NCBI GenBank assembly: GCA_949152475.1
Contig: OX424569.1
Span: 20,621,170-20,685,169 of the forward strand
DNA: 64,000 nucleotides
Direction: 5' to 3'
From: Terebella lapidaria
Lineage: Eukaryota > Annelida > Polychaeta > Terebellida > Terebellidae
Both the position numbers and the translations under genes were made by a program. The notes below the pieces were generated by a model. That model had not been told where the DNA came from, did no database searches, and was given only the letters and a program-made list of their open reading frames with translations. This document shows positions 1,851 through 63,236 of this stretch, piece by piece (positions within the stretch are counted from its first letter, which is position 1; each line of letters opens with the position of its first letter).

Positions 1851-3947
1851 CGGAGAAATATACAGAGCTAAGCCGAGAAAGTTGAAGGTCAAATTCAAGG
1901 TGACCACTGAAATCGCCATATCTCTAACCTTGAAAATGGGATCAAAGGTTAAATTCTAGATCACCAAACTATTCAGCATACATCATTTCCTATATGTTCA
2001 CTATGGACCCCTAAGCTGTAAATTTGATAATAAGCGAGATACAAGCCATTTTGTAATCTGACTTTGAAAATAAAATGACTGACCTTGAAATTTAGGTCAA
2101 AGGTCAAATTCAATATCATTAAAATATTCAGAATATATCATTTCCTATATGTTCACAATTGATTCCTAAGCTGTAAAGTCGATAATAAGCGAGATATTAG
2201 CCATTTTGTCCTGTTGACCTTGAAAATGAGGTCAAAAGTCAAATTCAAGGTCACTAGAATATTCAGCATATATCATTGACATTAGAGCGTTGGGGGCGAA
2301 GCCCCCAACTCTCTACATGTCTATGTGCTGACTTTTTTGTGGAGGTTTCATGCCAACCTATCGACGCCCGTTTTGGGGTGTAAACGTTTGTATACCTACT
2401 TCAAATGAGGATTTTCTTCGTCCTTGACATAAAATCTCTCGATTTGATGGCAAGTTTTGAATATTCCACAGATATATAATGCATAAATGGATGTGTTATG
2501 TTTGAGAAAATTACGCAAAATGCTCAGCTCGTCTGAAAAAACGTCAAAATGGCGGAGCCGATGGAAATTCACGTTCCCAGAATGCAAAGCAAATTTTACC
2601 GCAATGACGCGTATTTAGGAAAGCACAGTTTTCTGTGCAGCATTTCGTGCATGCATGTACATGGAACCTTGCGTGTGCCCTTCTTTGGCGTAATGAAGTA
2701 AACACAACGATTCGTTTGCGATACCACAACTACGTTTACCGTAATTTGACGTATTTTATCACATGACAAGGTGTTCCATGTTGGGTTGCGAAACCTTTTT
2801 ATTTTAAACTGGTCTTTCAATTTTCCCAGTATGCATGCATGTGTTAGCTAGATATGACGATCTCAGATGCAGATATTCCTCATAGTTTCCAATATTTTAA
2901 GGATATTTTATTGAGGTTGAATATCATTTTATCAGGCATATCTGTTTCATTGAGTTCAAAATAAATGTTTATAAGAATATGATTGAAGTAGGCCTATGTG
3001 TTTCATCATAATATAGGCTGAATGATTTGGAATCATGTGGAGGAGGATATGGTTCAATTTTCTTTTATTGCGGGGGGGGGGGGGGGGGGGCAGTCACGTT
3101 GTGTAAGATACATTCAGCTTTTGTGGTTCTGGTGATATGCTCGAGCTCTAATGTCGTCTCCCGCAGTTAACTGCATTTTCTTGTTTCCTATATGTTCACA
3201 ATTGATTTCTAAGCTGTAAAGGCGCTAATAAGCATGATATTAGCCATTTTCTCCTGTGACCTTGAAATGAGGTCAAAGGTCAAGTTCAAGGTCATGAGAA
3301 TATTCAGCATATATCATTTCCTATATGTTCACAATTGATTCCTAAGCTGTAAAGTCGATAATAAGCGAGATATTAGCAATTTTGTCCCGTGACCTTGGAA
3401 ATGAGGTCAAAGGTCAAATTCAAGGTCATGAGAATATTCAGCATATATCATTTCCTATATGTTCACAATTGATTCCTAAGCTGTAAAGTCGATAATAAGC
3501 GAGATATTAGCAATTTTGTCCTGCGACCTTGGAAATGAGGTCAAAAATCAACTTCAAGGTCACGAAAATATTCAGCATATATCATTTCCTATATGTTCAC
3601 AACTGATTCCTAAGCTGTAAAGTCGATAATAAGCGAGATATTAGCCATTTTGTCCTGTGACCTTGAAAATGAAGTCAAAAGTCATATTCAAGGTCACGAG
3701 AATATTCAGCATATATCATTTCCTATATGTCCACAATTCATTTCTAGTCTCTAATTTCAATATTAAGTGAGATATTAGGCTTAATGTGTGCCATTATAAA
3801 GCATAGGAAAATTTAACATGGGAAAGTCACATTTGGGCCGAGTTTGGGCCCAAAATGGAACACTTCAAGTGATTCAAGCGCAACGAAATTTATACATGTC
3901 ACAGGGGTACATATGAGGAGTGTTTTTCATCAATAAGAAAAAAATTA
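1851..3947 (+). repeat. Family A core array (134-bp satellite), split by an insertion
   Basis: Begins GTTACCGGAGAAATATAC and contains 134-bp units with AGGTCAAAGGTCA and TCAAGGTCA. The array is interrupted at 2,278-3,182 and ends in the family A tail (CATTATAAAGCATAGG...). Confidence 0.75.
2278..3182. mobile_element. Hairpin-ended insertion inside the satellite
   Basis: The satellite reading ATATCATT/TTCCTAT is split here. The ends carry inverted GACATTAGAGC. Next to one end is a strong hairpin, GTTGGGGGCGAAGCCCCCAAC; next to the other is GCAGTTAACTGC. A run of 19 G lies at 3,072-3,090. Read on the minus strand, the hairpin-then-terminal-repeat order matches the other families. No transposase is visible. 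Confidence 0.55.
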
Positions 3948-5600
3948 GCCCAATGGGCTAGAAAGGTTACCGGAGAAATATACAGAGCTAAGCCGAGAAA
4001 GTTGAAGGTCAAATTCAAGGTGACCACTGAAATCGCCATATCTCTAACCTTGAAAATGGGATCAAAGGTTAAATTCTAGATCACCAAACTATTCAGCATA
4101 CATCATTTCCTATATGTTCACTATGGACCCCTAAGCTGTAAATTTGATAATAAGCGAGATATAAGCCATTTTGTAATCTGACTTTGAAAATAAAATGACT
4201 GACCTTGAAATTTAGGTCAAAGGTCAAATTCAATATCATTAAAATATTCAAAATATATCATTTCCTATATGTTCACAATTGATTCCTAAGCTGTAAAGTC
4301 GATAATAAGCGAGATATTAGCCATTTTGTCCTGTTGACCTAGAAAAAGAGGTCAAAAGTCAAATTCAAGGCCATGAGAATATTCAGCATATATCATTTCC
4401 TATATGTTCACAATTGATTCCTAAGCTGTAAAGTCGATAATAAGCGAGATATTAGCAATTTTGTCCTGTGACCTTGGAAATGAGGTCAAAGGTCAAATTC
4501 AAGGTCATGGGAATATTCAGCATATATCATTTCCTATATGTTCACAATTGATTCCTAAGCTGTAAAGTCGATAATGAGCGAGATATTAGCCATTTTGTCA
4601 TGTGAAATTGAAAATGAGGTCAAAGGTCAAATTCAAGGTCATGAGAATTTTCAGCATATATCATTTCCTATATGTTCACAATTGATCCCTTAGCTGTAAA
4701 ATCGATAATAAGTGTGATATTGGCCATTTTGTCCTGTGACCTTGAAAATGAGGTCAAAGGTCAAAATCAACGTCATCAGAATATTTGGCATATATCGTTT
4801 CCTATATGTCCACAATTGATTCCTAAGCTGTAAAGTCGATGATAAGCGAGATATTAGCCATTTTGTGCTCTGACCTTGAAACTGAGGTCGGAGGTCAAAT
4901 TTGAGGTCACGAGAATATTCAGCATATATCATTTCCTATATGTCCACAATTGATCCCTAAGCTGTAAAATCGATAATAAGTGAGATATTAGCCATTTTGT
5001 CCTGTGATCTTGAAAATGAGATCAAAGGTCAAATTCAAGGTTATCAGAATGGCGGTAACCTAAAAATTAGGTCAAAGGGCAAATTCAAGGTCACGAGAAT
5101 ATTGAGCATATATCATTTCCTATATGTCCACAATTGATTCCTAGTCTCTAAACTCAATATTAAGTGAGATATAAGGCATAATGTGTCCCATTATAAAGCA
5201 TAGGAGAATTTAACATGGGAAAGTCCCATTTGGGCCAAGTTTGGCCCAAAATGGCCCACTTCGAGCGATTCAAGAGCAACGAAACTTATACACATCACAG
5301 GAGTACATATGAGGAGTGTTGTGTATCAAAAAGAAAAAAAGTTCTTGAACAGTTTTTGAGAAAATGGCCGCCAAAGTCCAAAATCAGGCATTTTTCGTCG
5401 AAAACGGCCGCCATTTTGAAAAAAATGCGAAAATCGAAAAACTAAAAAGAACCTTCCCTTGAAATATTTTTAGGTATTTTTGTGCAAAATTTCAGAAAGA
5501 TTCGATCATATACTTTAAAGATAAAAATGTGAACAGACGACGGACGACGGACGCAACGCCACGGCAATAGGTTATCGGACCAAAGGTCCGGTAACCTAAA
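3948..5600 (+). mobile_element. Family A element, both ends present
   Basis: The left hairpin TTAGCCCAATGGGCTA and GGTTACCGGA are followed by about eight 134-bp units. Then come the tail and a short GACG-type tract (5,535-5,560). The right hairpin GGACCAAAGGTCC with GGTAACCTAA closes it. Another family A left end follows at once. Confidence 0.75.
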
Positions 5601-7389
5601 AATTAGCCCAAGGGCTCAGCAAGGTTACCGGACAATGTTTTACATTCTATATATTAGCCATTTTGTCCCGAGACCTTGACAACAAGGTCAAATTCAAGGT
5701 CACAAAAATATTCAGCATATATAATTTCATGTCCACAATTGATTCCTAAGCTGCAAAATCGACAATGAGCAAGATATTAACCATTTTGTGTTCTGACCTT
5801 GGAGATGAGATCAAATTCAAGGTCATGAGAATATTCAGCATATATCATTTCCTATATGTGCTCAATTGATTGCAAAGCTGTAAGTTCGATAATAAACGAG
5901 ATATTAACCATTTTGTGCTTTGACCTTGAAAATGAGGTCAAATGTCAAATTCAAGGTCATGACAATATTCAGCATTTATCGTTTACTATTTGTTCACAAT
6001 TGCTTCCTTAACTGTAAAAATGATAATAAGCGAGATATTAGCCATTTTATGCTCTGACCTTGAAAATGAGGTCGAAGGGCAAGTTCAAGGTCAATGACAA
6101 GATTAACTAGACATAAAAGCCTATAGGCTTTGTGGCATCCCCCATTTTGTTCTTATCATTTCAAATGGTCATACTGGACTGAGAAAAAAGGATACATAGG
6201 CCATTGTATGTGGGTAAGAGTGAGAGCTCATCAGACAGTTTCTTACCAGAACTGCTTTTTATCATCTTGACAACTTGGCCCACCAGACATTTGCCACCCC
6301 AAATGAATGGACAATTACCCAGCCAATATTATTCAGCGTACTAGTATATTTAATCAGAATGTTCGTGATATTTTTCAGGTGCTCCTGTCAAATATAAAAT
6401 GATACGTGACTAAAAGAATACTGTGTCATCTTGGCCAATTTTGTGATTTCAAAACTTGTACAATACAGCGGAATTTTCGCATTCATATTATAACCAAAGC
6501 CAAACATTTGCCAGCTAACTAAAACAATGATGATTTGGTCATTGCATGTGAAATAGAGTTGAATAACAAAACATTCAAACAATACATGTTTGTACAATAT
6601 AAATGCAGACAGGGCAAATCATCCCCCAAGCATGTTGTGTCATGTGTGTTGGCTTATTAACCAACTATTGTATTCTGTGGGATGTAACTTCATTCTTCAT
6701 TCACACACTAGTAAACCAGGCTTTGGAGGGGGGAGTGAGGGATAATGCATGGATATGAGCCTAGGGTCATGTTGGACATGCTAGCTGTATCACTTGTCAG
6801 GCATGACTGAGCAGGGCTGGCTGAGAGGGGTGGAGCCTATTTCTGTGCTGGACAGACTGGCTGATCTTGTCAGGCATGACTGAGCAGGGCTGGCTGAGAG
6901 GGGCGGAGCCTATTTCTGAGCTGGACAGCCTGGCTGATTTTGTAAGGCATGACCGAGCAGGGCTGGCTGAGAGGGGCAGAGCCCATTGCTGTGCTGGACA
7001 GACTGGCTGATCTCCTGCACTGGCTGAGAGGGCAGAGCCTAGCCTCATGCTGGACATGCAGGCTGCAGTCAGTGAATACAGTAGCATGGCTCAGTTACAG
7101 TATTACATCTGCATGGGCGCAGGCGAGGGAAAAATTATAAGTCCAAAAAAAAAAAAATGCACCTACAAAATTTTTTTTCCTCTGGAAATTGCCTGAATCA
7201 AATTATGACATTGACAGGAATCGCCCGATTTTTTTTTCCAAAATGGCCGCTGGCGGCCATCTTGGATTTCGGATCTCGACGAAAAACAATAGGGGTTAGA
7301 AGCAAAGTATTTCGGATGAGCTGTGAAAATTTCGGAAAGATAGATCGAGGCGTTCAAGAGTTATGATCCGGAAACCAAACGGCGGAAGA

Positions 7390-7421
<32 letters not shown>

Positions 7422-9840
7422 AAAAAACAGATAAAAACATAAGGCCTCCCGATTTTCAATCGGGATGCCTAAATATATATATATCATCTCCTACATGTGC
7501 ACAATTGATTCTAAGCTGCAAAGTCGATAATAAGCGAGATACTAGCCATTTAATGCTCTGACCTTGAAAATGAGATCAAAGGTCAAGATCAAGGTCATGA
7601 CAATATTCAGCATATATCACTTCCTACATGGCCCCAATTGATTTGTAAGCTGTAAAGTCGATGATAAGTGAGATTTTAGCCATTTTTTCCTATGACCTTG
7701 AAGATGGAGAACAAGGTCAAATTCAAAGTCATCAGAATATTCGGCGTATATCATTTCCTATACATCCACAACTGATTTTCTAACCTGTGAAGTCAATAAT
7801 AAGCGAGATATTAGCCATTTTGTGCTCTTGACTTTGAAAATTAGGTCAGAGGTCAGATTCAAGGTCACTAGAATATACGGCATATATCATTTCCTATATA
7901 TCCACAATTGATCCCTAAGCTGTAAAATCGATAATAAGTGAGATATTAGCCATTTTGTCCTGTGACCTTGAAAATGAGGTCAAAGGTCAAATTCAAGGTC
8001 ATGACAATAATCTGAATATATCATTTCCTATATGTTCATAATTGATTCCTAAGCTGTAAAGTCAATAAGAAGCGAGATATTAGCCATTTTGTCCTGTGAC
8101 CTTGAAAATGAGGTCAAAGGTCAAATTCGAGGTCATGAGAATATTCGGCATATATTATTTCCTATATGTCCACAATTGATTTCTAATCTGTAAAGTCGAT
8201 AATAAGCGAGATATTAGCTATTTTGTGGTCTGACCTTGGAACTGAGGTCAGAGGTCAAATTCAAGGTCACGAGAATGTTCAGCATATATCATTTCCTATA
8301 TGTCCACATTGATCTCTAGTGTCTAATCTCAATATTGAGTGAGATATTAGACATAATGTGTCCCATTATAAAGCATAGGAGAGTTTAACATGGAAAAGTC
8401 TCATTTGGGCCGAGTTTGGGCCAAAAAGGCCCACTTCCAGCGATTCAAGCACAACGAAACTTATACACATCACAGGAGTACATATGAGGAGTGTTATGTA
8501 TTAAAAAGAAACTTGAAAATGAGGCCAAAAGTCAAATTCAAAGGCACAAAAATATTATGGATATTTCATTCCATATATGTCCACGATTGATTATTAACCT
8601 GTAAAATCGATAATAGCGAGATAGTAGCCATTTTGTGCTATGACCTTGAAAATAAGGTCAAAGGTCAAATTTAAGGTCATCAGAATATTCAGTGTATATC
8701 CTTTCCAATATGTCCACATTTGATTCCTAAGCTGTAAAGTCGATAATAAGCGAGATATTAGCCATTTTGTCCGGTGACCTTGAAAATGAGGTCAAAGGTC
8801 AAATTCAAGGTCACGTGCATATTCAGCACATATCATTTCCTACATGTCCACAATTGATCCCTAAGCTGTAAAATCGATAATAAGTGAGATATTAGCCATT
8901 TTGTCCCGTGACCTTGAAAATGAGGTCAAAGGTCAAATTCAAGGTCATGACAATAATCTGCATATATCATTTCCTATATGGTCATAATTAATTCCTAAGC
9001 TGTAAAGTCGATAAAAAGTGAGATATTAGCCATTTTGTCCTGTGACCTTGAAAATGAGGTCAAAGGTCAAATTCAAAGTCACGACAATAATTTGCATATA
9101 TCATTTCCTATATTTCCACAATTGATCCCTAAGCTGTAGAATCGATAATAAGTGAGATATTAGCCATTTTGTCCTGTGACCTTGAAAATGAGGTCAAAGG
9201 TCAAATTCAAGGTCATCAGAATATTCAGCATATATCATTACCTATATGTCCACAATTGATTCCTAAGCTGTAGAGTCGATAATAAGCGAGATATAAGCCA
9301 TTTTTTCCTGTGACCTTGAAAATGAGGTCAAAGGTCAAATTCAAGGTCATCAGAATATTCGGTATATATCATTTCCTATATGTCCACGATTGATTTCTAA
9401 GCTGTAAAGTCGATAATAAGCGAGATATTAGCCATTTTGTTCTTTGACCTTGAAACTAAGGTCAGAGGTCAAATTCAAGGTCACGAGAACATTCAGCATG
9501 TATCATTTCCTATATGTCCACAATTGATTCCCAGTCTCTAATCTCAATATTAAGTGAGATATAAGGCATAATGTGTCCCATTATAAAGCATAGGAAAATT
9601 TAACATGGGAAAGTCCCATTTGGGCCAAGTTTGGCCCAAAATGGGCCACTTCGAGCAATTCGAGCGCAACGAAACTTATACACATCACAGGAGTACATGT
9701 GAGGAGTGTTGTGTATCAAAAAGAAAAAAAGTTACTGAACAGTTTTTGAGAAAATAGCCGCCAAAGTCCAAAATCAGGCATTTTTCGTCGAAAACGGCCG
9801 CCATTTTGAAAAAAATGCGAAAATCGAAAAACAAAAAATT
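5601..9840 (+). repeat. Family A array split by a family R copy, right end missing
   Basis: Left hairpin TTAGCCCAAGGGCT at about 5,600. 134-bp units run to about 6,113 and resume at 7,471. Tail sequence appears twice (about 8,340-8,510 and 9,550-9,840). The next left end follows without a right hairpin. Confidence 0.7.
6114..7471 (+). mobile_element. Family R element, both ends present (copy 2)
   Basis: Left hairpin AAAGCCTATAGGCTTT at 6,117-6,132, then GGCATCCC. The right hairpin ends GGGATGCC at 7,462-7,469. It is inserted in a family A core, and the satellite resumes just after it. About 1.36 kb, no coding capacity. Confidence 0.75.
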
Positions 9841-22590: not shown

Positions 22591-23608
22591 CCCAGTGATC
22601 GCTACTGTGGGGCCACCTAGTGAATAGAATCACGGGTATTGGCACAGACAACAGGTGGAGCCACGATCTGGTGTGCAATTTAATTTCTGTCCGTGGGACG
22701 GACGGACAAGCTTGTCCAATATATTTCTGGGGTGAAACTTGAAACTTTCACACGCAACCCAGAATAGCCAGATGTACGTGTTGGAATAGTTTAGTTGTGG
22801 GTTGCAACGCAAAACTTGCAATAATCCCCACAACTGGTGTCTGTACTGATAACTCAACCCGAAACTATGCTCTGGTGAGAGCGGACGTACGGACGGACGG
22901 ACGGACGGACGACGGACGCAACGCCATGCCAATAGGTTATCGGACCAAAGGTCCGGTAACCTAAAAAATACCTCCTTCTCAAAATATTTTTAGGCATTTT
23001 TGTGCAAAATTTCAGAAAGATTCGATCGTTAACTTTAAAGATAAAAATGTTAACGCCGGACGGACGGACGTGCGGACGAGACCTTCTTGTGTGCCTTTTA
23101 CATGTTAAATTTCCTATCTAAAATAGGCACACAACTCCCCAAAATAGGCACACAAGAAGAAATTTCCTCACAACTTATGGTTGTGTGCCTTTTCTAGTCA
23201 CACAACCATACTCTCGTCCGCCCGGACGGACGGACGGACGGCTAGACAGACGGACGGACGGACGGACGGACGGACGGACGACGGACGCAACGCCATGCCA
23301 ATAGGTTATCGGACCAAAGGTCCGGTAACCTAAAAACTAAAAAATACCTCCCTCTCGAAATATTTTTAGGCATTTTTGTGCAAAATTTCAGAAAAATTCG
23401 ATCGTAAACTTTAAAGATAAAATTGTTGACGGACGACGACGACGACGACGACGGACGACGACGCCGGACACATCGCCATGCCAATAGGTTACGGACCATA
23501 GGTCCGGTAACCTAAAAATGTGGACGACGACGATGACGACAACGGCGGACGACGGACGCAACGCCATGCCAATAGGTTATCGGACCATAGGTCCGGTAAC
23601 CTAAAAAG
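22591..23608 (+). repeat. Stack of family A right ends
   Basis: Four right-end hairpins (GGACC, three-base loop, GGTCC, then GGTAACCTAA) end near 22,964, 23,332, 23,516 and 23,608. They are separated by partial tails and GACG or GAC tracts. A 145-bp foreign piece is embedded in one tract (about 23,075-23,222). Confidence 0.7.
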
Positions 23609-38800: not shown

Positions 38801-40105
38801 GAAATTACCCGCTTTCTTCTCCTTGCCAGGAATTTTCTTCAGCATCATCCCTCGACTTTCGAAAAGACAGAAAAAAAAAACATTTCTAAATGGTCTGACA
38901 GAAATAACACAATATGCTTGTCAACTAGATGGTCTGTCATGGCAGGCAACCAGGTTGTATCTCCTCATCAGGCTCTATCACAGGTTCACTGTAATTAAGT
39001 CTGACGTACGTGTTATCACAGTAATGACAATTAAACACAAACAGGAGACCTCTTGGCCTTGAGAGCTTCGCTGCAAAAGTTCAAATAGTAGTTATATTGA
39101 AATTCCAAATTTGATCCAAATGTTTGACAAAAAGTGGCCATTCTGATCTTTCATGCAAAATTTTTTTCAAAAAATAAATTTTTTTTTGGCTGGAAATGGC
39201 TCAAAATGAATACTTGTAGTGACTTTATTTGGGACAACAACCTTTTTTCGCCAAGCCTTTGAAAAATCGAAATGGCCACCACACAGAGACCTGCAGTTAA
39301 AGGGCAAGGACACTTCTACACATCACAAAGATACATAAGGGGAATCTTTTGGAACAAAAATATCAAAACTGCTAAGACAGTTTTGAGAAAATGGCTGCCA
39401 ATTGCCAAATTTGGGTGTTTTCCGTCAAAAAGTGGCTGTTTTTACTTTTTAAATGTTATCAAAGGTTAAATCCAAGGTCACTACACACATCATCACATAT
39501 GACTTCCCATTTGAAAGTGCCAAAATATGCTCTCTGTTCTATGAGTACAGTTGTGGCAGTTCTCATAATGAAGGAAAAAAGTCCAAATTTTTTTTCAAAG
39601 GAAAAGAATTTTTTTCCTTACCTGGAAATGGCTCAAAACGAATAGTGACTTGATTTGGAACAAAGAATTTTTTTCTTTCGCCTAGCCGTCAGAAAATCAA
39701 AATGGCCGTCCCACGTAGACCATCGACTCAACAAAACGGCAACAAAACTTATACACATCACAAAGGTACATAAGCAAAATCTTATGCATGATCTTGAGAA
39801 AAATTGTTTGAATAGAAAATGGCCGCCAAAGACAAATATCAATGTTTGTTTTTTTGACAAATAAAGATCGTTTTGACCTTCCAAGGTCATTGAAGGTCAA
39901 ATTCAAGATCACCATTCAAACCGCAATATATGATTTCCCATCTGAATGTGCCAATATTTAGGCTCCATCTTGAAGTGTTCTATGGTGTTTACTCTGCAAA
40001 GCTCCCATTATGAAGAAAAAATTGTGTGAAATTTCTAATAAAAAAATGATTCAATGGCCAAAAAAAATTATGGGACAAAAAATTTTTTTTCACCGACTTG
40101 TCAAA
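38801..40105. repeat. Short unique stretch then diverged A'/B core
   Basis: 38,801-39,080 shows no recognised feature. From about 39,090, older and more diverged units of the A'/B core run up to the next left end. Confidence 0.5.
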
Positions 40106-43100: not shown

Positions 43101-45485
43101 GCCATTTTGTCCTGTTGACCTTGAAAATGAGGTCAAAAGTCAAATTCAAGGTCACTAGAATATTCAGCATATATCATTTCCTATATGTTCACAATTGATT
43201 CCTAAGCTGTAAAGTCGCTAATAAGCAAGATATTGGCCATTTTGTCCTGTGACCTTGGAAATGAGGTCAAAGGTCAAATTCAAGGTCACGAGAATATTCA
43301 GCATATATCATTTCCTATATGTTCACAATTGATTCCTAAGCTGTAAAGTAGCTAATAAGCAAGATATTGGCAATTTTGTCCTGTGACCTTGAAAATGAGG
43401 TCAAAGGTCAAATTCAAGGTCATGAGGATATTCAGCATATATCATTTCCTATATGTTCACAATAGATTCCTAAGCTGTAAAGTCGATAATAAGCGAGATA
43501 TTAGCCATTTTGTCCTGTGACCTTGAAAATGAGGTCAAAGGTAAAATTCAAGGTCATCAGAATATTCAGCATATATCATTTCCTATATGTTCACAATTGA
43601 TTTCTAAGCTGTAAAGTCGATAATAAGCGAGATATTAGCCATTTTGTCCTGTGACCTTGAAAATGAGGTCAAAGGTCAGATTCAAGGTCACGAGAATATT
43701 CAGCATATATCATTTCCTATATGTCCACAATTGATTCCTAGTCTCTAATCTCAATATTAAGTGAGATATTAGGCTTAATGTGTCCCATTATAAAGCATAG
43801 GAAAATTTAACATGGGAAAGTCACATCTGGGCCGAGTTTGGGCCCAAAATGGCCCACTTCGAGTGATTCAAGTGCAACGAAGTTTATACATGTCACAGAA
43901 GTACATATGAGGAGTGTTATGCATCAATAAAAATTAGGCCAAAGGCCAAAGATAGGTTACCGGACAATGTTTAATATTTTAAATGTTAGCCAGGTCACTG
44001 GTTCAATTCAAGGTCAAGAGAATATTCAGCATATATAACATTAAGCATATATCATGTCCACAGTTGATTGCTAAGCTGTAAATTCAATAATCAGCGAGAT
44101 ATTAGCAATTTTGTGCTGTGGCCTTGAAAATGAAGGGGCAAAGGTCAAATTCAAGGTCATCAAAATATTCAGTGTATATCATTTTCTATATCATGTCCAC
44201 AATTGATTCCCAAGCCATACAGTCAATAGAGGAGCAAGATATGAGCCAGTTTGTCCTTGGACCTTGAGAATGAGGTCAGAGGTCAAATTCAAGGTCCGAG
44301 AATATTCAGCATATATCATTTCCTACATGTCCACAATTGATTCCTAAGCTGTAATATCGATAATAAGTGAGATGTTACCCATTTTGTCCTGTGACCTTGA
44401 AAATGAGGTCAAAGGTCAAATTCAAGGTCATGACAATAATCTGCATATATCATTTCCTATATGTCCATAACTGATTCCTAAGCTGTCAAGTCGATAACAA
44501 GCGAGATATTAGTCATTTTGTCCTATGACCTTGAAAATGCCGTCAAAGGTCAAATTCAAGGTCATCAGAATATTCAGCATATATCATTTCCTATATGTAC
44601 ACAATTGATTGCTAAGCTGTAGAGTCGATAATAAGTGAGATATTAGCCATTTTGTCCTGTGACCTTGAAAATGAGGTCAAAGGTCAAATTCAAGGTCATG
44701 ACAATAATCTGCATATATCATTTCCTATATGTTCATAACTGATTCCTAAGCTGTAAAGTCGAAAACAAGCGAGATATTAGCCATTTTGTCCTATGACCTT
44801 GAAAATGGGGTCAAAGGTCAAATTCAAGGTCATCAGAATATTCAGCATATATCATTTCCTATATGTCCACAATTGATTCCTAAGCTGTAGAGTCGATAAT
44901 AAGCGAGATATCAGCCATTTTGTGCTCTGACTTTGAAATTGAGGTCAGAGGTCAAATTCAAGGTCACGAGAATATTCAGCATATATCATTTCCTATATGT
45001 CCACAATTGATTCCTAGTCTCTAATCTCAATATTAAGTGAGATATTAGGCATAATGTGTCCCATTATAAAGCATAGGAGAATTTAACATGGGAAAGTCCC
45101 ATTTGGACCGAGTTTGGGCCAAAATGGCCCACTTCGAGCGATTCAAGCGTGACGAAATTTTTAGACATCATAGGAGTACATATGAGGAGTGCTATGTATC
45201 AAAAAGAAAAAAAGTTACTGAACAGATTTTGAGAAAACGACCGTCAAAGTCCAAAATTGGCCATTTTTCGACGAAAACGGCCGCCATTTTGAAAAAAATG
45301 CGAAAATCAAAAAACTAAAAAATACCTCCTTTTTGAATTATTTTTAAGCATTTTTGTGCAACAATTCAGAAAAATCCGATCGTAAACTTTAAAGATAAAA
45401 TTGTTTACGGACGACGGACGGACGGTCGGACGACGGACGCAACGCCATGGCAATAGGTTATCGGACCATAGGTCCGGTAACCTAA
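40106..45485 (+). repeat. Large family A satellite array
   Basis: Left end AGCCCAATGGGCT at 40,113. 134-bp units are regularly spaced (starts at 40,561, 40,695 and 40,829). Internal left ends AGGCCAAAGGCC occur at about 41,986 and 43,933, then tail, GACG tract and right hairpin ending near 45,485. Much of it is a 1,947-bp tandem duplication. Confidence 0.85.
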
Positions 45486-45656
45486 AATACCTCCCTCTCG
45501 AAATATTTTTAGGCATTTTTGTGCAAAATTTCAGAAAAATTCGATCGTAAACTTTAAAGATAAAATTGTTGACGGACGACGACGACGACGGACGACGACA
45601 ACGACGGACGCATCGCCATGCCAATAGGTTACGGACCATAGGTCCGGTAACCTAAA
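45486..45656 (+). repeat. Family A right-end fragment
   Basis: Partial tail, GAC-rich tract and right hairpin GGACCATAGGTCC with GGTAACCTAA. Confidence 0.65.
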
Positions 45657-46032
45657 AATCAAAATGGCCGCCACAAGCAGACCGGCGATTCCAGGACAAA
45701 GAAACTTATACACATCATAGAGGTATATGAGGGGAATGTTTCCAAACAAAAATCTCAAAACTGATTTTGAGAAAATGGCCATCAACGTCCAAAATTGGCC
45801 ATTTTTCGGCAAAAATGGCCACCATGAATCAACAAAAACGATTGAATAAAAAAAATGAAAAAAAAGGTCTCAGGGTATTGGCCCAAGAAATGTTTTGGTA
45901 AATTTTCAGAAAAATTCATCAAGGCAAAAAGAGTTATTTGCTGGACGGACAATGGACGGATGGCTGGACGGACGTACGGACGGATGAAAAACCTTGACAA
46001 TAGCTTACCAGCCCATATGGGCCAGTAAGCTA
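45657..46032 (+). repeat. Family B right-end fragment
   Basis: B-type tail with a GACG tract, ending in TAGCTTACC, AGCCCATATGGGCC and AGTAAGCTA. Confidence 0.6.
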
Positions 46033-48009: not shown

Positions 48010-49372
48010 AACATAGCACCAAGAGTGCTGTAGCTTACCGGCAGATCATGCAACTGGAGTATTGATTTTCCAAAATATTAATTGTTACATTGATCTTCAA
48101 CTCTATTGTCAAAACATGTTCCTAAATGTTCCCAAACACACATTTTCTGTATCAATTATAATACGGAAAATACGAAAACGAGTTACATCTTGAAAGGTTT
48201 TCTTTGTTAATGACAGATATTCACGGGCGGGGGGAGGGGGGTGGAATGGGGGGGGGGGGAATTGAAATTCATTAAAGGTCAAATCAAAGGTGATCATTCA
48301 TACCGCAACAAATGATTTGATTTTACTTTATCACCCCATCTGATAACATTCGAAACCTTGGTGTTATCTTCGACAAGAATCTGTCCATGCAGTCACAAGT
48401 TAATGCAATCTGCAGGTCCTGCTATCAAAGCATTCGGTCTATTGGACGCATTCGCTGTATGATCAATGCTCAGTGCGCCAAGAGTCTGGTCCAAGCTACA
48501 GTTATATCGAAACTGGATCACTGTAATTCACTCTTGTACGGGATTCCGCAAACCCTCCTGGACAAGTTAGCACGCATCCAAAAAACTGCCGCCCGTCTCA
48601 TAAGTCGCACTGGCAAATACGACAGCATTACGCCGGTAATGAAGTCTCTACACTGGCTACCGATTTCACTGCGTATTGACTTCAAAATACTTTGCCACGT
48701 GTATCGCTGTATCAAAGGCCTAGCACCGCAATATCTGTCTCAAGAAGTCACCATTGTCCATCGCCCTGAGCGCAGTCTCCGCTCCAATAACAGAAATGTC
48801 CTGGTGGTCCCGCTCTGTCACCACAAGCAAGGCGATCAAGCTTTTGATATGGCCGCTGCAAAGCTGTGGAACATTTTACCTGGCAGAGTTAAAGACGCTG
48901 AATCTTTGAAATCATTCAAGAGAGCACTAAAGACTCACTTCTTCACATCTGTATACTAGTCGTCTATTTGTTCTAGTCAATCAATGCTGTTTTGGTTTTA
49001 TCCAGTTCTTAATGTCGCCTTTTATTTTTTCCTGTTGTGTAATACTGTCTCTGTCATATTTACAATCCTCTTTCACACATTTTTTATGTACAGCGCCGTA
49101 GAGCAGATTCATATCTGGATAGGGCACTATAAAAGTTGCCATTTAATAATAATAATGATTTCCCATTTGAATGTGTCAATACTATGTCTTTAAGTGTTCT
49201 AGAAGTTTACTCCGCACAGCTCGAATTGTGAAGGAAAAATTTAGTGAAATTTTGTTAAGTGCAAAAAAAATTTCTTCAGCCAAAAAAAAAAATTGGTTTT
49301 TGCAGGGAATCACTCAAAACAAATAGTGACTCGATTTGGGAGAAAAAATTTTTTTGTCGACCAGTCAAAAAC
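48010..49372 (+). repeat. Family B left part, split by a LINE
   Basis: Hairpin AGCACCAAGAGTGCT with TAGCTTACCGGC at about 48,013-48,042. The core is interrupted by the LINE at about 48,318-49,150 and resumes CCCATTTGAATGTG. Confidence 0.6.
48318..49156 (+). mobile_element. 5'-truncated LINE (CR1/L2/Jockey-like group), 3' end
   Basis: The frame from before 48,387 to 48,959 encodes the C-terminal end of a non-LTR reverse transcriptase: NIRNLGVIFD, LDHCNSLLYG, ARIQKTAARLI, LHWLPI, RIDFKILCHVYR, GLAPQYL, LKTHFF then stop. The 3'UTR ends GGGCACTATAAAAG and an (AAT)n tail, typical of this group. ATGATTT flanks both ends, a likely target duplication. Endonuclease and the RT catalytic core are missing. 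The reading frame is open over its whole remaining length, so the copy is fairly young. Confidence 0.85.
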
Positions 49373-52300
49373 TAGATGCTTCCGGTCGCCTACGACCGCT
49401 TGAGTGTATCCCCCGTAACCCCATCGTCCATGTCGCCCCAAATATTAAACTGGTTTTTTTCTACCAAAATTGCTGCATTGCCCTTTCAAGGTCATTGAAG
49501 GTCAAATTCAAGGTCACCACTGAAATCAGTGCATATGAATTTCCATTTCATCATGTTCAATAAGATAACAAAGTTATAGCCAGATCAAACTTCTCATCAA
49601 AAGTTATATTTCAACTCAGAATATTTGACAAACTTGGTTTCAAGTTGAAATTCAAAGCAAAAGTTGACCAAAACTGATATTTCAACCCAAAATATCTGAC
49701 AAACTTGGTTTCAAGTTGAAATCCAAATAAAAGCTGACCAAAACTAAATTTCAAGATGACAAAATTAGAGCCAGATCGAACTTTTCACCATAAGTTAGAT
49801 TTTAATTCACAATATGTACCAAATTTGGTTTCAAGTGAAATGCAAAGTAAAAGTTTACCAAAACTGAATTTCAAGATGACGAAATTGGAGCCAGATCAAA
49901 CTTTTCACCATAAGTTATATTTTAACTCATAATTTGTGCCAAACTTGGTTTCAAGTTGAAATTCAAAGTAAAATTTGACAAAAGCTGTATTTCAAGATGT
50001 TAAAATTGGAGCCAGGTTTAACTTTTACCACAAGTTATAATTCAACTCATAATATGTGCCCAATAATGAATGTTCCTCACCTTAACTATTTTTATTGTGG
50101 TCAATAATAGACTTAACCAGCCAAATTAATGTTAAATTATTCAGTAATATCAATGATATTCACCATAAAAGCACTACTGGATAACCTTTTCCTCATTGAT
50201 CCGAATAATAAATGTCCTTTGCCTTAACATTTTTTATTGTGCTCAGTAATAGACTTAACTAGCAATATTAATGTTAACTTATTCACGAATATCAATGGTA
50301 CTGCAGCCATAAAGTCAATACTGGACACAACCTTCACATGTACCTTGTTGAGCCCAATAATAAATGTTTCTTTGCCTAACTATTTTTATTTTGGCCAGTA
50401 ATAAACTTAACTAGTGAAACTAACGTTAAACTAGTCAAATTTCTGTTAACTTATTCAGTAAAAGTAATCTCTCCACACAAAACCATCACCTGTAAATAGG
50501 TAAAAATGCCCAGTGTGATTTGTTTGCAGATATCAACCAAATGAAATGATCATACATCTCAAACTGGATATTTCACATTTTTGTAATGAGTTATCTCATA
50601 AACTTATTAATGTTTATTCAATCTTTCTGAAAAACAACCGGTTTCGTGCCTGAGCATTGCTCAACAGGCCTGTTCAATATTGTAGTGATTCCTGTAAAAT
50701 TACAACTTTTAGAGCGTTCAAAAGTCATGGGTATTGAAATGGCTGATTTTGTCACAAAATGTGTCGCCAATCGGCCATTTTGGTTGCTATGGCAACCAAA
50801 ATCGATAGGTGTCGTGATCTCACCATAAGACATGTCCATATAAAATACTAGACGCTTCCGGTCGCCTACGACCGCTTGGGTGTATCCCCCGTAGCCCTAT
50901 CATCCCTGTTGCCCCAAATATATCGCTGATGTACATTGTGAGTGTGAAACCTTTCAGACTTATTGAAGGTCGAATTCAAGATCACCACTAAAATCACTGC
51001 ATTCGAATTTCCATTTCGACATGTTCGAAAAAAATAACGAAATTACAGCCAGATAAAAGTTTTCACCTAAAGCTATATTTCAACTCAGAATATTTGACAA
51101 ACTTGGTTCGCAACTAAGTTGCGAGATGACTAAATTGGAGCCAGATCGAACTTTTCACTGTAAGTTATATTTCAACTCATACTATGTGCCAAACAACTCA
51201 TACTATGTTCCAAGTTGAAATTCAAAGTAAAAGTTGACCAAAACTACATTTCAAGATGACGAAATTGGAGCCAGATCAACTTTTCACCATAATTTAAATT
51301 TTAATTCATAATATGTGCTAAACTTGGTTTCAAGCTGAAATTCAAGTAAAAGTTTACCAAAACTGCATTTCAAGATGACGAAATTGGAGCCAGATCGATC
51401 TTTTCACCATAAATTATATTTTAATTCATAATATGTGCCAAACTTGGTTCCAAGTTGAAATTCGAAGTAAAAATTGACTTTACTGGTAAAAATAATGTTA
51501 ACTTATCCGGTTACACCCATGAAATCTCTACTGGACAAAACTTTTAAATTGTTGAGTTCAATAATAAATGTTTCTTGTCTTAACTATTTTTCTTGAGGTC
51601 AATAATAGACTTAACTAGTAAAACTGATGTTAACTTATTCGGCTACAGCCATGAAATCTCTACTGCACAGAAGCTTTACCTTGTTGAGCCCAATAATAAA
51701 TGTTTCTTGTCTTAACTATTTTTATTGTGGCCAATAATAGACTTAACTAGTAAAAATAATGTTAACTTATTCGGTTACACCTGTGAAGTCTCTACTGGAC
51801 AAAACCTTTACCTTGTTGAGCTCAATAATAAATGTTTCTCGTCTTAACTATTTTTATTGTGGTCAATAATAGACTTAACTAGTAAAACCAATGTTAACTT
51901 ATTCAGTAATATTGTTCTTTTTTCACCAAAAACATCAGTTCTGTATTCTGAACAAGAATCCAGTGCAATTTGCTTTCATAGTACGGGTTATTGGAGTGAT
52001 CACACATGTCAAAGTAGGTATTTTAATTGTCGTAATAAGTTAACCTCTCAAACTTATTAATAATCATTCGATCATTCTGAAAAACAATAGGTTTCGTGTG
52101 ATGGTCTTTCTCATTGAGCCTGTGCGATTTCATCATCATTCATTGAAAACTCCCACCCGTAGTGCGTTCACAACCCATGTGTGTTAAACAGGCTAATTTG
52201 AGCACAAAATGTTACGCCAATCGGCTATTTTGGTTGCTATGGCAACCAAAATCGATAGGTGTCCAGATCTCACCATAAGACATGTCCATATAAAATATTA

Positions 52301-52550
52301 TCAAAATCGGTTCATATTTGCAACCTGCAGCGCGTTCACAAGAAAGTGTCTGCGGACGCGGACGCGGACGCGACGATCGTAAATCCATAGTATCCGCCGA
52401 ACTTTGTTCGGGGGATACAATTATCAAAATCAGTTCAGATTTGTAAGCTGTAGCGCGTTCACAAGAAAGTGTCTGCGGACGCGAACGCGGCGGCGGCGCG
52501 ATGATCGTAAATCCATAGTATCCGCCGAACTTTGTTCGGGGGATACAATA
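49373..52550 (+). mobile_element. Family C element(s)
   Basis: The left end has hairpin CCGGTCGCCTACGACCG followed by GTATCCCCC (49,405-49,413), repeated at about 50,851. Core units of about 120 bp contain TCAAGTTGAAATTCAAAGTA and ACGAAATTGGAGCCAGAT. Right ends near 52,420 and 52,548 carry CCGAACTTTGTTCGG followed by GGGGATAC. Non-coding. Confidence 0.7.
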
Positions 52551-52930
52551 AAAATGGCCACCACACGCAGACCGGCGATTCAAGGGCAACGAAACTTATA
52601 CATGTCATAGAGGTACATGATAGAAATGTTTTGAAACAAAAATATCAAAACTGATCAGACAGTTTTTGAGAAAATGGCCACCAAAGTTCAAAATTGGCAT
52701 CTAAAATGGCCCTCAAATCGGCAAAAACAATTCAATCAAAAAATTTGTTCTTTAGATATTGGCCCAAGGTATGTTCTGACAAATTTGTGGGGAAATTCAT
52801 TATGCCCAAAAAAAAGTTACAGACCCGGACAGACGACGGACGAAAAACCATGACAAGATACCATTGGCCTGAAGGCCAAACTCGTCGAAATCTTTTTTTA
52901 CATGCGTGGCCTACTTTAAGCATAATTGAA
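52551..52930 (+). repeat. Family A/B-like tail with a variant right hairpin
   Basis: Tail-type sequence, then a short GAC tract and a hairpin with arms TTGGCC and GGCCAA at about 52,864-52,878. Confidence 0.5.
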
Positions 52931-55570
52931 TGAGGTTTCCGACGGTGTAATCCATTTCATTAAGGATTAATACTTACCCAGATACAATCCTATTTCGAAA
53001 ATGGACGTTTGACGTCATGACGTCATTGTTGTTGAATGTGATGTGTTTAAACTCGGTACATGGCTGGGTATTATTATTCGACATAGGTTCCCATAATTAC
53101 AGTCTAATAACTTCAAATTTGAGTGCACTGTGGATGTTTGCTGAAAAGTCGAAAAATTGGTACGGCAGGCATTACGTTTATTACTTCATAGCGGAAAATC
53201 TATCATGGCGGAAAAGTATCGGACAGTACTCTCCTAAACCAGAATTCAACGAGCTTTCCAATGGTGCAATCCACTTCTCTGTACGACAAATACTTTTCGA
53301 TATACAGCCCCGTTTTGAAAATTGACGTTTTGCGTCATGACGTCATTGACGTTGAACGTAGCGCGTTGAATCTTGGTATATCGCTGTATAATAATATTTC
53401 ACATAGGTTCTCATAATTACAGTTCGATACTTTTAAATTTGAGTACACTGTGGATATTTGAAAGTTTGCTGAAAAGTCAAAAAAAAATTTAGGACAGGCC
53501 TTACGTTTATGACGTCATAGCGGAAAATCTATCAGAGCGGAAACGTAACGGACAGTACCCCTCTAAACCAGAATTCAACGAGCTTTCGAGTGGTGCAATC
53601 CGCTTCTCTGTGCGACAAATACTTTCAGATATATAGCCCCATTTTTAAAATTGACATTTTACGTCATGACATCATTGAGGTGAACGTAGCGTGTTGAAAC
53701 TTGGTATATGGCTGTATATTAATATTTCACATGGGTTCTCATAACTACAGTTCAAAACCTTCAAATTTGAGTGCACACTGGATGTTTGAATGTTTGCTGA
53801 AAAGTCGAAAATTTTGTATTACAGGCCTTACGTTTATGACGTCATAGCGGAAAATCTATCAGGGCGGCAAAGTATCGGATAGTACTCTCTTAAACCAGAA
53901 TTCAACGAGCTTTCCAGCGGTACAATCCGCTTCTCTGTACGACAAATCCCTCTCGACATATAGCTCCATTTTTAAAATTGACGTTTTACGTCATGACGTC
54001 ATTGACGTTGCATGTAGCGTGTTGAAACTAGGGATGTGGCTGAGCAATAACGTTCCACATACGATCTTATAATTACAGTCTATTACCTTCAAAATTGAGT
54101 GCACTGTGGTTGTTTGAAAGTTTGCTGAAAAGCCGAAAAACTTGTATGACAGGCCTTACATTTATGACGTCATAGCGGAAAATTTATCATGGCGGAAAAG
54201 AATCGGACAGTACCCTCCTGAACCAGAATTCAACGAGCTTTCCAACGGTACAACCCGCTTTTCTGTACAACAAATACCTCTCGATATATAGCTCCATTTT
54301 GAAAATTGACGTTTTACGTCATGACGTCATTGACGTTGCACGTAGCGTGTTGGAACTCGGTGTATGACTTGGTAATAAAGTTCCACATACGTTCTCATAA
54401 TCAGAGTCTATTACCTTCAAAATTGAGTGCACTGTGGTTGTTTGAAAGTTTGCTGAAAAACCAAAAACTTCTATAACAGGCCTTACGTTTATGACGTCAT
54501 AGCGGAAAATCTATCATGGCAGAAAAGTATCGGACAATACCCTCCTAAACCAGAATTCAACGAGCTTTCCAGTGGTGCAATCCGCTTCTCTGTACGACGA
54601 ATAGTTTCCGAGATATAGCCCATTTTTAAAATTGACGTTTTACGTCATGAAGTCATTGACAAACGTAGCGCGTTGAAACTTGGTATGTGGCTGTATATTA
54701 ATATTTCACATAGGTTCTCATAATTACAGTTCAAAACCTTCAAATTTGAGTGCACTGTGGATGTTTGAATGTTTGCTGAAAAGTCGAACATTTTGTATGA
54801 TCCATTTTGAAAATTGACGTTTTACGTCATGACGTCATTGACGTTGCACGTAGCGTGTTGAAACTCGGTGTGTGGCTGGGTAATAAAGGTCCACATACGT
54901 TCTCATTATTACAGTCCAGTAACTTCAAATTTGGGTGCACTGTGGATGTTTGAAATTTTGCTGAAAAATCGAAAAACTGGTATGACAGGCCTTACGTTTA
55001 TGACGTCATAGCGGAAAATTTATCATGGCGGAAAAGTATCGGACAGTACCCTCCTGAACCAGAATTCAACGAGCTTTCCAATGGTGCAATTCACTTTTTT
55101 CTACGACAAATACTTTCCGATATATGGCCCCATTTTAAAAATTGACATTTTACGTCATGACGTCATTGACGTTCAACCGATCAACGTATAACTTTGTTGT
55201 TCGATGGATAATATGAACATATATCAGTGTATCAAATTTCAAAACAATCGGTTCAAATTTGACTGCTGTGCGAATTTTTTAAAATTCGCCAATGATGAGA
55301 GATAGGGATTTTTCGAGTTTTTAAGAATTTTTGGTGACGTCATCAATGGACCGATTTTTTTCAAAAACGTTCGGTCCCGTCCTTGGCCGAATACCTATCC
55401 ACCAAAAAAGTTTCGGAATGTTACCGTGAAATCTGTGGCCGCTAGAGAGGTAACAAACAAACAAACATACATACAAACAAACATCCGCGAGTGACCAACA
55501 TACTTGGCGAAAATCGAAGATTTCGCCAAGTAATAATAGCTTATCGGCCCAAAAGGCGGTAAGCTAAAAA
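52931..55570 (+). mobile_element. Family D array rich in CRE palindromes
   Basis: About seven units of roughly 320-330 bp, each with ACGTCATGACGTCATTGACG and TTTATGACGTCATAGCGG (some mutated), CTGAAAAGTCGAAAA and CCAGAATTCAACGAGC. The array closes with an AAAC/ATAC-rich tract and a B-like right end (TAGCTTATC, GGCCCAAAAGGC, GGTAAGCTA). Confidence 0.75.
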
Positions 55571-57434: not shown

Positions 57435-57442
57435 TTTCCTAT

Positions 57443-58096: not shown

Positions 58097-58104
58097 TTTC
58101 CTAT

Positions 58105-60637: not shown

Positions 60638-60735
60638 CTAGACGCTTCCGGTCGCCTACGACCGCTTGGGTGTATCCCCCGTAGCCCTATCATCTCTGTT
60701 GCCCCAAATATATCACTGTCAAGTGTGAAAAAAAA
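60638..60735 (+). repeat. Family C left-end fragment
   Basis: ACTAGACGCTTCC, hairpin CCGGTCGCCTACGACCG and GTATCCCCC, then cut off by a family A left end. Confidence 0.65.
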
Positions 60736-62355
60736 AAAATTAGCCCAAGGGCTAAAATAGGTTACCGGACAATTTTGGTTTCAAGCATTGTAGGTGACAT
60801 ATGATTTTGAGATTTACCAGTCAAGGTCATCTTTGTGAATCTCAATGTCACCATCAGGTATGCTGCATATGACTTCGTATGTTCATAATACAAACATATA
60901 AGTTTTATCAACAAGTATTTCGTGTGTAGAGGCCAATTTCAGATTTTGAGAATCGCCCTTCAAGGTCTTTAAGGTCAAGTTCAAGGTCACCAAAAAATGT
61001 GCCATTTATACATGACTTTTTTACAGGCTTATACACAATCCTTACCTGTATGTGCAAAAGTTTATGGTTCAGAGGCCACTTTCAAGATTTCATGTCAGAC
61101 ATTTAGCACTCAAGGTCATCCAAGGTCAAAATCAAGGTCATCATTAGTTGTTCCATATATGACTTCCTATATGTTCATAATGCAAACTGAAGCTCTATAT
61201 ACATGCATTTCATCTGTAGAGGCAAATTTGGGCATTTTTTCACCCAAAAATGGCTGTTTTGACCTTTCAAGGTCATCAAAGGTCAAATTCAAGGTCACCT
61301 CCCAACTCGCTATATATGACTTCCTATTTGAAAGTGCCAATATCTAAGCTCTATCTTCAAGCGTACTATGAGTACAGTCCTGGCAGCTCCCATTATGAAG
61401 GAAAAAAGTGCCGAACATTTTTTTCAAAGGGTGAAATTTTTTTTTTGTCTGGAAATGACCCAAAATGAATAGTAGCGCGATTTGGGGCAAACAAAATTTT
61501 TTTCGCCGACCCGTCAAAAATTCTAAATGGCCGCCACACGGAGACCGGCGATTCAAGGGCAACAAAACTTATACACATCATAAAGGTACATAAGGGGAAT
61601 ATTTTGAAACAATAATCTCAAAACTGATCAGACAGTTTTCGAGAAAAGACAGGCCAGGTGCAAATTTGAGCATTTCTCGACCCAAAAATGGCTGTTTTGA
61701 CCTTTCAAGGTCATCCAAGGTCAAATTCAAGGTCACCACACATTCGCCATATATGACTTTCCATTTGAAAGTGCCAATATCTAAGGTCTATCTTCAAGCG
61801 TTCTATGAGTACAGTCCCAGAAGCTCTCATTATGAGAGAAAAAAGTGCCGAAAATTTTCCAAGTCCAAAATTTTTTTCAAAGGGTGAAAAAAAATTTTTG
61901 TCTACAAATGACCCAAAATGGATAGTAACGCGATTTGGGACAAAAAAAATTTTTTTTCGCCGACCCGTCAAAAATTCAAAATGGCCGCCACACGGAGACC
62001 GGCGATTCAAGGGCAACAAAACTTATACACATCATAAAGGTACATAAGGGGAATCTTTTGAAACAAAAATCTCAAAACTGATCAGACAGTTTTTGAGAAA
62101 ATCGCCACCAAAGTCCAAATTTGACCATTTTTCGTCAAAAATGGCCGCCATTTTGAGAAAAATGCGAAAATCAAAAAACTAAAAAATAACCCCCTCTTGA
62201 AATATTTTTAGGCAACTTTGTGCAAAATTTCAGGAAAATCCGCCTATAAACTTTAAAGATAAAATTGTGGACGGACGACGGACGATGGACGACAGACAGA
62301 CGACGGACGCAACGCGACGGCAATAGGTTATCGGACCATCGGTCCGGTAACCTAA
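60736..62355 (+). mobile_element. Family A' element, both ends present
   Basis: Left hairpin TTAGCCCAAGGGCTAA with GGTTACCGGAC. The A' core units carry TTCAAAATGGCCGCCACACG or a close variant. A tail, a GACG-type tract (about 62,268-62,310) and right hairpin GGACCATCGGTCC with GGTAACCTAA complete it. Confidence 0.75.
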
Positions 62356-63236
62356 AAACTAGAGCAAGGGCTAAAAAAGATTACCAGAGAAATGTTAAAT
62401 CTCAAGTCACAACTGTTTTCTTTTCCCCACCAAAATTGCTGCACTGATTTTCCGAGGTTATTGAAGGTCGAATTCAAAATCACCACTGAAATCTCTTTAT
62501 ATGAATTTCCATTCGACATGTTTGATAAAATAACGAAAATACAGATAGATCAATCTTTTCACCTATTTATATTTCAACTCTGAATATTTTACAAACTTGG
62601 TTCCAAGTTGAAATTCAAAGTAAAATTTGACCAAAAATGCATTTCAAGATGACGAAATTGGAGCTAGATTGAACTTCTCACCATAAGTTATATTTCGATT
62701 CATAATACATGTATGTGCCAAACATGGTTTCAAGTTGAAATTCAAAGTAAAAGTTAATCAAAACTGCATTTCAAGATGACAAAATTGGAGCCAGATCAAA
62801 CTTTTCGTTATGAGTTATATTTTAACTCATAATACCTGCCCAACTGGATTTCAAGTTGAAATTCAAACTAAAAGTTGACCAAAACTGCATTTCAAGATGA
62901 CGAAATTGGACCCAGATCAAACTTTTCGCCATGAGTTATATTTCAACTCATAATATGTGCCAAACTTGGTATTAAGTTGAAATTCAATGTAAAAATTGAC
63001 CAAAACTGCATTTCAAGATGACGAAATTGGAGCCAGATAGAACTTTTCGTCATAAGTTATATTTTAACTCATAATATGTGCCAAACTTGGTTTCAAGTTG
63101 AAATTTAAGCTAAAAGTTTACCAAAACTGCATTTCAAGATGAAGAAATTGGAGCCAGATCGAACTTTTCATCATAAGTTATATTTTAACTCATAATATGT
63201 GTCAAACTTGGTTTCAAGTTGAAATTCAAACTAAAA
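62356..63236 (+). repeat. Family C-type core array with a variant left end
   Basis: It begins with an A-like left end (GGGCTAAAAAAGATTACC). About six ~120-bp units of TCAAGTTGAAATTCAAA and ACGAAATTGGA follow. It is cut by the next family A left end. Confidence 0.65.

Follow-up and report, generated by a model that had tools for sequence, protein, structure and literature searches.

The repeat families A, B, C, R and I are described here from a 64,000-nucleotide stretch of the Terebella lapidaria genome (C16:20621170-20685169 of an assembly of 762 Mb in 438 contigs), referred to below as the window. It is crowded with tandem repeats, including one with a 134-bp unit, and with nested copies of A, B, C and R. 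Very probably, the five are non-autonomous rolling-circle families with Helitron2-type ends, whereby A is moved by an endonuclease-bearing Helentron, B and I share its T-rich ends, and C and R make up a second type. An earlier note on the window had ascribed the families to Helentron/Helitron2 elements with HINE derivatives. This assignment is borne out by A, the ends of which delimit units of about 19.1 kb carrying the Rep of a Rep-PIF1-endonuclease family, with the domains read in the related frame E4. As the earlier note gave no coordinates for A, B, C and R, their positions in the window were assigned by motif.

The genome contains numerous matches to Helitron_like_N (PF14214; 150 scored out of 234 candidates), mostly in long open frames, and several diverged Rep groups are present. 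E4, a frame of 2548 codons, combines Helitron_like_N (3.8e-28) and PIF1 (4.1e-21) with a C-terminal Exo_endo_phos domain (2e-5; 24.9 bits, barely above the cut-off of 24.5); its HUH motif reads PHIHM and its Y2 motif YACAMY. In E5, a relative of E4, the helicase is accompanied by a stronger Exo_endo_phos match (3.6e-8; 33.9 bits). Comparison of the E4 3' region with the genome (40 of 4,805 candidates scored) gave 83 match rows, of which 28 stop at query positions 2544-2551, directly after TCTCCGGTAACCTTTCTAGCCCTTGGGCTAATTTTT, an A-type 3' terminus with its T-run. Two full units with A ends, each about 19.1 kb long, are located at C12:34685803-34704952 and C14:31982134-32001267. Both start at AGGTTACCGGACC followed by a hairpin and (GTCC)n, which is the right end of A in the window, and both finish with the A-type 3' terminus. 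They are 99.5% identical over 3.78 kb at the 5' side, while the flanks are unrelated on the left as well as on the right, and T-runs border both boundaries of both units, corresponding to a T-rich or TT target. The Rep, encoded inside on the same strand in open frames of 1907 codons, is separated from the 5' end by about 12 kb and from the 3' end by about 7 kb. Both the terminal part of the coding region and the 3' region are collinear with E4 at 90-94% identity. At the level of sequence, these common termini demonstrate that A is a HINE family with an autonomous Helentron partner. In a second Helentron subfamily, represented by E5, two other loci stop at query positions 2731-2732, just past an A-type 3' terminus, and the E5 tail holds HINE-A-like sequence.

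All five families have the same layout when read in element orientation. The 5' end is followed by a repeat of 8-14 nt, which folds on the next nucleotides into a hairpin, and then by the interior; on the 3' side, the complement of the 5' repeat precedes a second hairpin and the 3' end. Family A thus has a subterminal inverted repeat (subTIR) with an inverted repeat (IR) at its 5' end and a subTIR with a palindrome at its 3' end, which is the Helentron/HINE end architecture. The z-scores range from -4.9 to -7.5 for the 5' hairpins and only from -0.7 to -2.4 for the 3' hairpins, which in B (-1.5), R (-1.05) and I (-0.7) are weak taken alone. According to the earlier note, the left hairpin adjoins an inverted repeat, and the outer arm of the right hairpin is complementary to that repeat. 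Read on the plus strand, this describes A, B, C and R correctly. It does not describe I, in which the repeat belongs to the left hairpin, a 44-nt structure (z -7.5) with GACATTAGAGC as its outer arm, and the right palindrome GCAGTTAACTGC is not complementary to the repeat. Relative to the elements, left and right were also interchanged for A, B, C and R, all 41 window termini of which (positions 968-63271) lie on the minus strand (21 of the 5' type and 20 of the 3' type; none on the plus strand at an edit limit of 27%). The true 5' end of these four families is therefore the former right end, and only I reads along the plus strand.

As had been claimed, each repeat is matched to its own partner. 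The longest exact pairing between partners is 12 nt in A and in B, 10 nt in C, 8 nt in R and 11 nt in I, compared with at most 7 (mean 3.75) in the 20 non-partner combinations; shuffled repeats reached 8 or more in 1 of 2000 cases. The accompanying statement that the terminal sequences differ completely was too strong, since A and B align across the entire hairpin and cross-pair over 7 bp, and C and R likewise cross-pair over 7 bp, whereas pairing between the two groups does not exceed 4 bp. The aligned ends show A and B to be related; for C and R a relationship is possible. In an alignment of the 5' ends of 10 A and 3 B copies, two main repeat positions differ, with both hairpin arms changing together (the first position in 3/3 B copies, the second in 2/3), and the 3' repeats bear the corresponding change. 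Such changes, matched across both hairpin arms and the 3' repeats, are evidence that the pairing is maintained.

A motif-free detector recovered A and B in the window (minus strand); its one plus-strand hit was a self-overlapping palindrome. In 40 first-order Markov sequences, used as controls, it averaged 0.07 hits and never exceeded 2. In the same window it missed C, R and I, the ends of which break its rules (for example, TTT at both ends). A second, looser de novo detector applied to 354 kb returned A, C and two other words, one from a satellite with 15 hits and one with a single hit, and 0 hits in two Markov copies; over these 354 kb no further family emerged convincingly, and B, R and I were missed. 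Genome-wide, pattern counts gave 15,754 A 5' ends (7986 plus, 7768 minus; at most 1 mismatch), 1,859 C 5' ends (906 plus, 953 minus; exact pattern), 880 R 3' ends (445 plus, 435 minus; exact pattern) and 1,735 I 5' ends (853 plus, 882 minus; at most 2 mismatches), with 0 in every reversed-pattern control. The flank and orientation statistics given below for A, C and R refer to the first 100 of these 15,754, 1,859 and 880 places, all on contig C1; in the two flank patterns the letter H bars G at one outer position.

The shared grammar spans at least two end types within this one genome. In A and B each end has a T-run, and in I each end has T's; none of the three terminates in CTAG. B, moreover, shares the end architecture of A. 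C and R have asymmetrical terminal inverted repeats (ATIRs) with hairpins at both ends and terminate in CTAG. The C 5' end reads TTGTATCC in 100/100 listed places, and the positions before GTATCC are T (98), any base, A (96), T (100) and T (100), giving a left flank of TNA|TT (TNAT^T). One exceptional C copy reads CTAG|TTGTATCC, a head-to-tail junction. At the C 3' end, 4/4 exact copies read CTAG|T, as does a fifth, diverged one at window position 49372. R 3' ends carry CTAG in 98/100 listed places, followed by T in 98/98 and by TT in 93. The CTAG ends of C and R and the TNA|TT flank of C, set against the T-rich ends of A, B and I, define at least two end types. B and I are probably moved by Helentrons related to that of A, and C and R (5' T or TT, 3' CTAG) are most like Helitron2/proto-Helentron elements.

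The proposal of a single transposition machinery, made in the earlier note, survives in so far as all five families belong to the common Helitron2/Helentron kind; the two end types do not agree with its stricter form. That one and the same Helentron machinery serves all of them, with neutral differences at the ends, would suit the order of parts, which is alike in all five families, and the imperfect design common to their 5' hairpins. This is nevertheless unlikely in view of the contrast between CTAG with its TNA|TT flank and the T-rich ends, the cross-pairing of at most 4 bp between the two groups and the several diverged Rep groups in the genome. Less probable still is an assignment of C and R to canonical Helitron1 (TC...CTRR, A^T target), with a mere resemblance to the other families. 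Their 3' hairpin does stand a few nucleotides ahead of CTAG, the CTRR half of Helitron1 fits the CTAG of R, and the next base is T in all 98 CTAG-ended R copies; the R 5' end is known from 3 window copies only. The C 5' end, however, is TT-GTATCC and the TC of Helitron1 was not encountered in any of the 100 listed places, and both families possess the paired end repeats and the 5' hairpin that Helitron1 lacks (PMC3627910).

Element I is complete in the window (2278..3185, plus strand), with the 5' hairpin at 2278-2321 including the repeat GACATTAGAGC, the 3' repeat at 3145-3155 and the 3' palindrome GCAGTTAACTGC, and it ends in CTTGTT; two T's at its boundary can be assigned to neither side. 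With 40 of 2,705 candidates scored, 39 copies besides that of the window matched most or all of the element at 92-97% identity, some of them in tandem. Both ends were compared in 5 copies and the 5' ends in 3 more. The 5' flank is TTTTT|GACATT in 4/5 copies and ATT in the window copy, the 3' end is CTTGTT| in 5/5, and the homology boundaries coincide with the terminal motifs. The window copy interrupts the 134-bp satellite (CATT[I]TCC), and apart from the ambiguous T's nothing is duplicated. I therefore has a 5' hairpin with subTIR, a 3' subTIR with palindrome and a TT target without target site duplication, the last judged by this one satellite insertion. The same insertion argues against cut-and-paste miniature inverted-repeat transposable elements, which would account for inverted repeats at the ends and for the high copy number and are very improbable here: the repeats are asymmetric, outermost at one end and internal at the other, and the partner family of A encodes a Rep-helicase-endonuclease. 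Chance or satellite-derived palindromes lacking terminal function are scarcely credible, even in a region so rich in simple and tandem repeats that a satellite word passed the looser detector, given near-zero controls and, for A and I, homology boundaries falling at the terminal motifs, which refutes this origin for both.

Several points weigh against the five-family interpretation favored here. The case is known from sequence comparison and not from observed transposition. The helicase and the endonuclease of the C12 and C14 units are attributed to them through E4 and the collinearity, and the E4 5' end lies beyond the stretch read. The 5' boundary of the autonomous A element is given by 2 copies, a third (on C17) being rearranged at its 5' side. 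E4 itself runs beyond the 3' boundary, as does the E4-family copy at C17:1137765, and the other rows of the E4 3' search stop elsewhere. A HINE-A joined to the E5 tail may be the source of the A-type end of E5, and two additional E5 relatives stop sooner (at query positions 1762 and 2386). Of the two loci supporting E5, one is a 100% identical copy on the small contig C413, possibly an assembly duplicate. Perfect pairing of the ends is not universal, since in oyster Cg_HINEs, according to a passage of the paper on them, a single mismatch between the end repeats is frequent (PMC7492417). Full copies with a Rep-helicase between the same termini, the check proposed in the earlier note for each family, were found for A (the two units with Rep, the helicase by way of E4), whereas no termini of B, C, R or I were found around the Reps examined (E1, E2, E3, g32, g115 and g28), where the element ends lay beyond the stretches searched, so that this is not evidence of absence. 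The g32 tail holds only one B 3' end, in reverse orientation, and downstream of the E1 open reading frame there is no hairpin with CTAG fit to be a 3' terminus. The 3' extents of E3 were uninformative, as only 2 candidates, situated within a tandem cluster, were scored.

Starting from the observed termini and their pairing, the Rep-bearing A unit with its boundaries and the flank preferences of C and R, transposition may be pictured as follows. The Y2/HUH enzyme of Rep would nick the 5' end and the helicase would peel off a single strand. With synthesis at the 3' end, the 3' repeat could pair with the 5' repeat, open the 5' hairpin and so mark the end, the 3' hairpin presumably acting as the terminator. 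The strand would then be inserted at a T-rich or TNAT target with no duplication of target sequence; in one insertion of I none was seen.

The 5' hairpins share a further feature. In each of the five families the hairpin contains one 1x1 mismatch (C.A in A and B, C.C in C, A.G in R and C.T in I, the latter with an additional one-base bulge), and in all five the 3' repeat offers a Watson-Crick partner at this position. The calculated energies of the hairpin arm and of the 3' repeat pairing (shared segment, DNA model) are -10.2 and -15.0 kcal/mol in A, -7.4 and -15.4 in B, -7.5 and -12.6 in C, -7.8 and -10.3 in R and -7.4 and -11.8 in I, so that the end-to-end duplex is the stronger by 2.5 to 8.0 kcal/mol. 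The base opposite the mismatched C in 15 matched A 5' ends was A in 13, deleted in 2 and the pairing G in 0; C.C was kept in 2/2 matched C 5' ends. We tentatively suggest that the 5' hairpin is built imperfect and that the mismatch might act as a one-way strand-exchange switch, which would end rolling-circle copying and give family-specific end recognition, an idea that we hold as speculative. The independent families behind the mismatch rule number only three or four, A and B being related and C and R perhaps so, and the invariance within A is explained by an inherited founder sequence; both weigh against the switch, as does the frequent mismatch between the end repeats of oyster HINEs (PMC7492417). 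That end-to-end pairing opens the 5' hairpin had already been proposed by Bao and Jurka (PMC3627910). The words mismatch and bulge are absent from the text of that paper, figures aside, and its sole 'imperfect' concerns Sola2. In the Fusarium paper, a passage mentions, for two subgroups, palindromes that are imperfect and overlap with the ATIRs, and the same passage does not mention a repairing 3' base (PMC5148889). The kept 1x1 mismatch with a pairing base in the 3' repeat is a candidate new detail. An imperfect hairpin as opposed to perfect end pairing is a simple testable rule for end definition and the detail worth testing.

The terminal grammar itself is already published (PMC3627910, PMC4067079, PMC7492417). 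In the sections of Thomas, Vadnagara and Pritham (2014; PMC4067079) on Helentron, HINE and DINE-1 elements, the subTIRs, the IR beside the 5' subTIR, the 3' palindrome, and the microsatellite and central repeats are alike, and for A so is a Rep-helicase-endonuclease family with the same ends; the T-rich target is alike as well. Compared with the elements of those sections, the A 3' palindrome adjoins a T-run, C and R end in CTAG, and the partner of A measures about 19 kb. The Helitron2 elements with ATIRs (Bao and Jurka, 2013; PMC3627910) agree in a 5' ATIR that lies within 0-2 bp of the end and forms a hairpin, and in a 3' ATIR just upstream of the 3' hairpin, with compensatory changes; in comparison with the text of that paper, the 1x1 mismatch in all five 5' hairpins and the pairing base in the 3' repeat are particular to the present families. 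Family A resembles the Pacific oyster Cg_HINE, as portrayed in parts of PMC7492417, in its 5' subTIR, IR and GTCC-type microsatellite, its satellite-like central repeats and its 3' subTIR with palindrome. In those parts the oyster authors could relate no autonomous Helentron to their HINEs, whereas A has one. The element lacking so far for oyster-type HINEs with satellites, an autonomous Helentron, is thereby supplied, and its ends are those of A, an abundant family. According to a passage of PMC5148889, FoHeli1/2 of Fusarium combine a TNAT target with an ATIR and two hairpins, similar to the TNAT^T flank of C, and proto-Helentron-Pi, in a section of PMC4067079, has 5' TT and 3' CTAG like C and R; compared with what these passages give for either, C and R combine ATIR/hairpin ends with a 3' CTAG. 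Two end types of one architecture coexist within a single genome. The ATon elements of Aedes, AT-inserting elements with terminal inverted repeats according to part of PMC3422177, were considered for comparison and set aside as not close.

The window contains five HINE-A copies, all on the minus strand. One occupies 35596..36675 (5' repeat and hairpin at 36648-36675, 3' repeat and palindrome at 35596-35629), and another 36872..38451 (5' end 38424-38451, 3' end 36872-36904), adjoining an A 5' end at 36838-36865 via AAAAAA. The copy at 43934..45483 has 134-bp central repeats and, over 45483-44925, shares 88% identity with the initial 577 bp of the autonomous Helentron. A fourth copy extends over 60740..62353 (5' end 62326-62353, 3' end 60740-60773). 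The fifth, at 3940..5597, most likely joins an A' 3' end (3940-3979), 97.5% identical to the Helentron 3' terminus, to a 5' end at 5570-5597. Four A 5' ends follow in succession over 22935..23602 on the minus strand (22935-22962, 23304-23331, 23487-23513 and 23575-23602).

The remaining copies of A, B, C and R termini are likewise on the minus strand. A B 5' end with repeat and hairpin (33910..33942) is separated by AAA from the A 3' end at 33946-33979. A probable B element with nested A elements spans 34971..46032 (3' end 34971-35003, 5' end 46000-46032), and a second one, enclosing C elements, 48011..55566 (3' end 48011-48043, 5' end 55536-55566), the ends of both being tentatively paired. 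The C element at 50848..52420 has 5' TT and hairpin at 52389-52418 and 3' repeat, hairpin and CTAG at 50848-50893; by motif, further C 3' ends with hairpin and CTAG lie at 49372..49417 and 60638..60683 and a second C 5' end at 52517..52548. The R element at 6107..7470 comprises a 5' end (7443-7470), a 3' repeat with palindrome (6115-6145) and CTAG (6107-6110), and two R 5' ends, assigned by motif, are partnerless in the window (968..995 and 25970..25996).

Four of the window 5' ends adjoin an A 3' end via 3-6 A's. Among the first 100 A 5' ends, adjacent ones had the same orientation in 21/21 pairs less than 2 kb apart and in 9/10 at 2-5 kb, compared with 11/19 at 5-20 kb, 16/21 at 20-60 kb and 12/28 beyond. 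The shared strand of the 41 window termini and the co-orientation of close A 5' ends fit insertion into the T-runs at the ends of neighbors, which would fix the orientation; local duplication could add to this. A local tandem duplication of about 1,947 bp is present at window positions 41702-43933, where it doubled one A 3' end (41987 and 43934).

Elsewhere in the genome, Rep copies are clustered about 20-40 kb apart on C3, C4, C6 and C14. For g32, g115 and g28, two copies are 98-100% identical over 5 kb situated 5-10 kb past the Rep, and the Rep elements at C2:57576468-57581467 and C4:20611956-20616955 (loci L083 and L084) are identical over 5 kb at this distance. Identical elements and clusters alike would reflect either a very recent spread or an assembly duplication of very long Helentrons. 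On C8 (2112985-2124984, loci L039 and L040), a Rep-helicase frame of 2018 codons has an OTU protease domain and no endonuclease match, with a separate frame of 255 codons behind it; this element is a candidate partner for the C/R type, though matching ends were not found there.

The E4 family carries nested insertions, including a C-like HINE. In its C17 copy an A 5' end is joined to an internal site at a CATAG microhomology (L056:360-400), for which a 5' rearrangement and a newborn shorter element are candidate readings; as a Helentron 5' end the fusion was dropped, the homology continuing upstream in 20/20 further copies. A 2.4-kb repeat inside an E4 Helentron (L049:1076-3480; C2:57079600-57082004), absent from the C16, C5 and C17 copies, has at least 38 other copies at 97-99% identity. 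Another repeat of 850 bp (L048, about 4877-5728) often occurs as inverted pairs a few kb apart and possibly represents the terminal repeats of another transposon. Within the window, an 823-codon open frame at 30249-32720 (minus strand) contains a reverse transcriptase domain (PF00078, 1.2e-21) and belongs to a retroelement, and the open frame at 16385-17731 is built mostly of a 36-bp minisatellite (35 copies).

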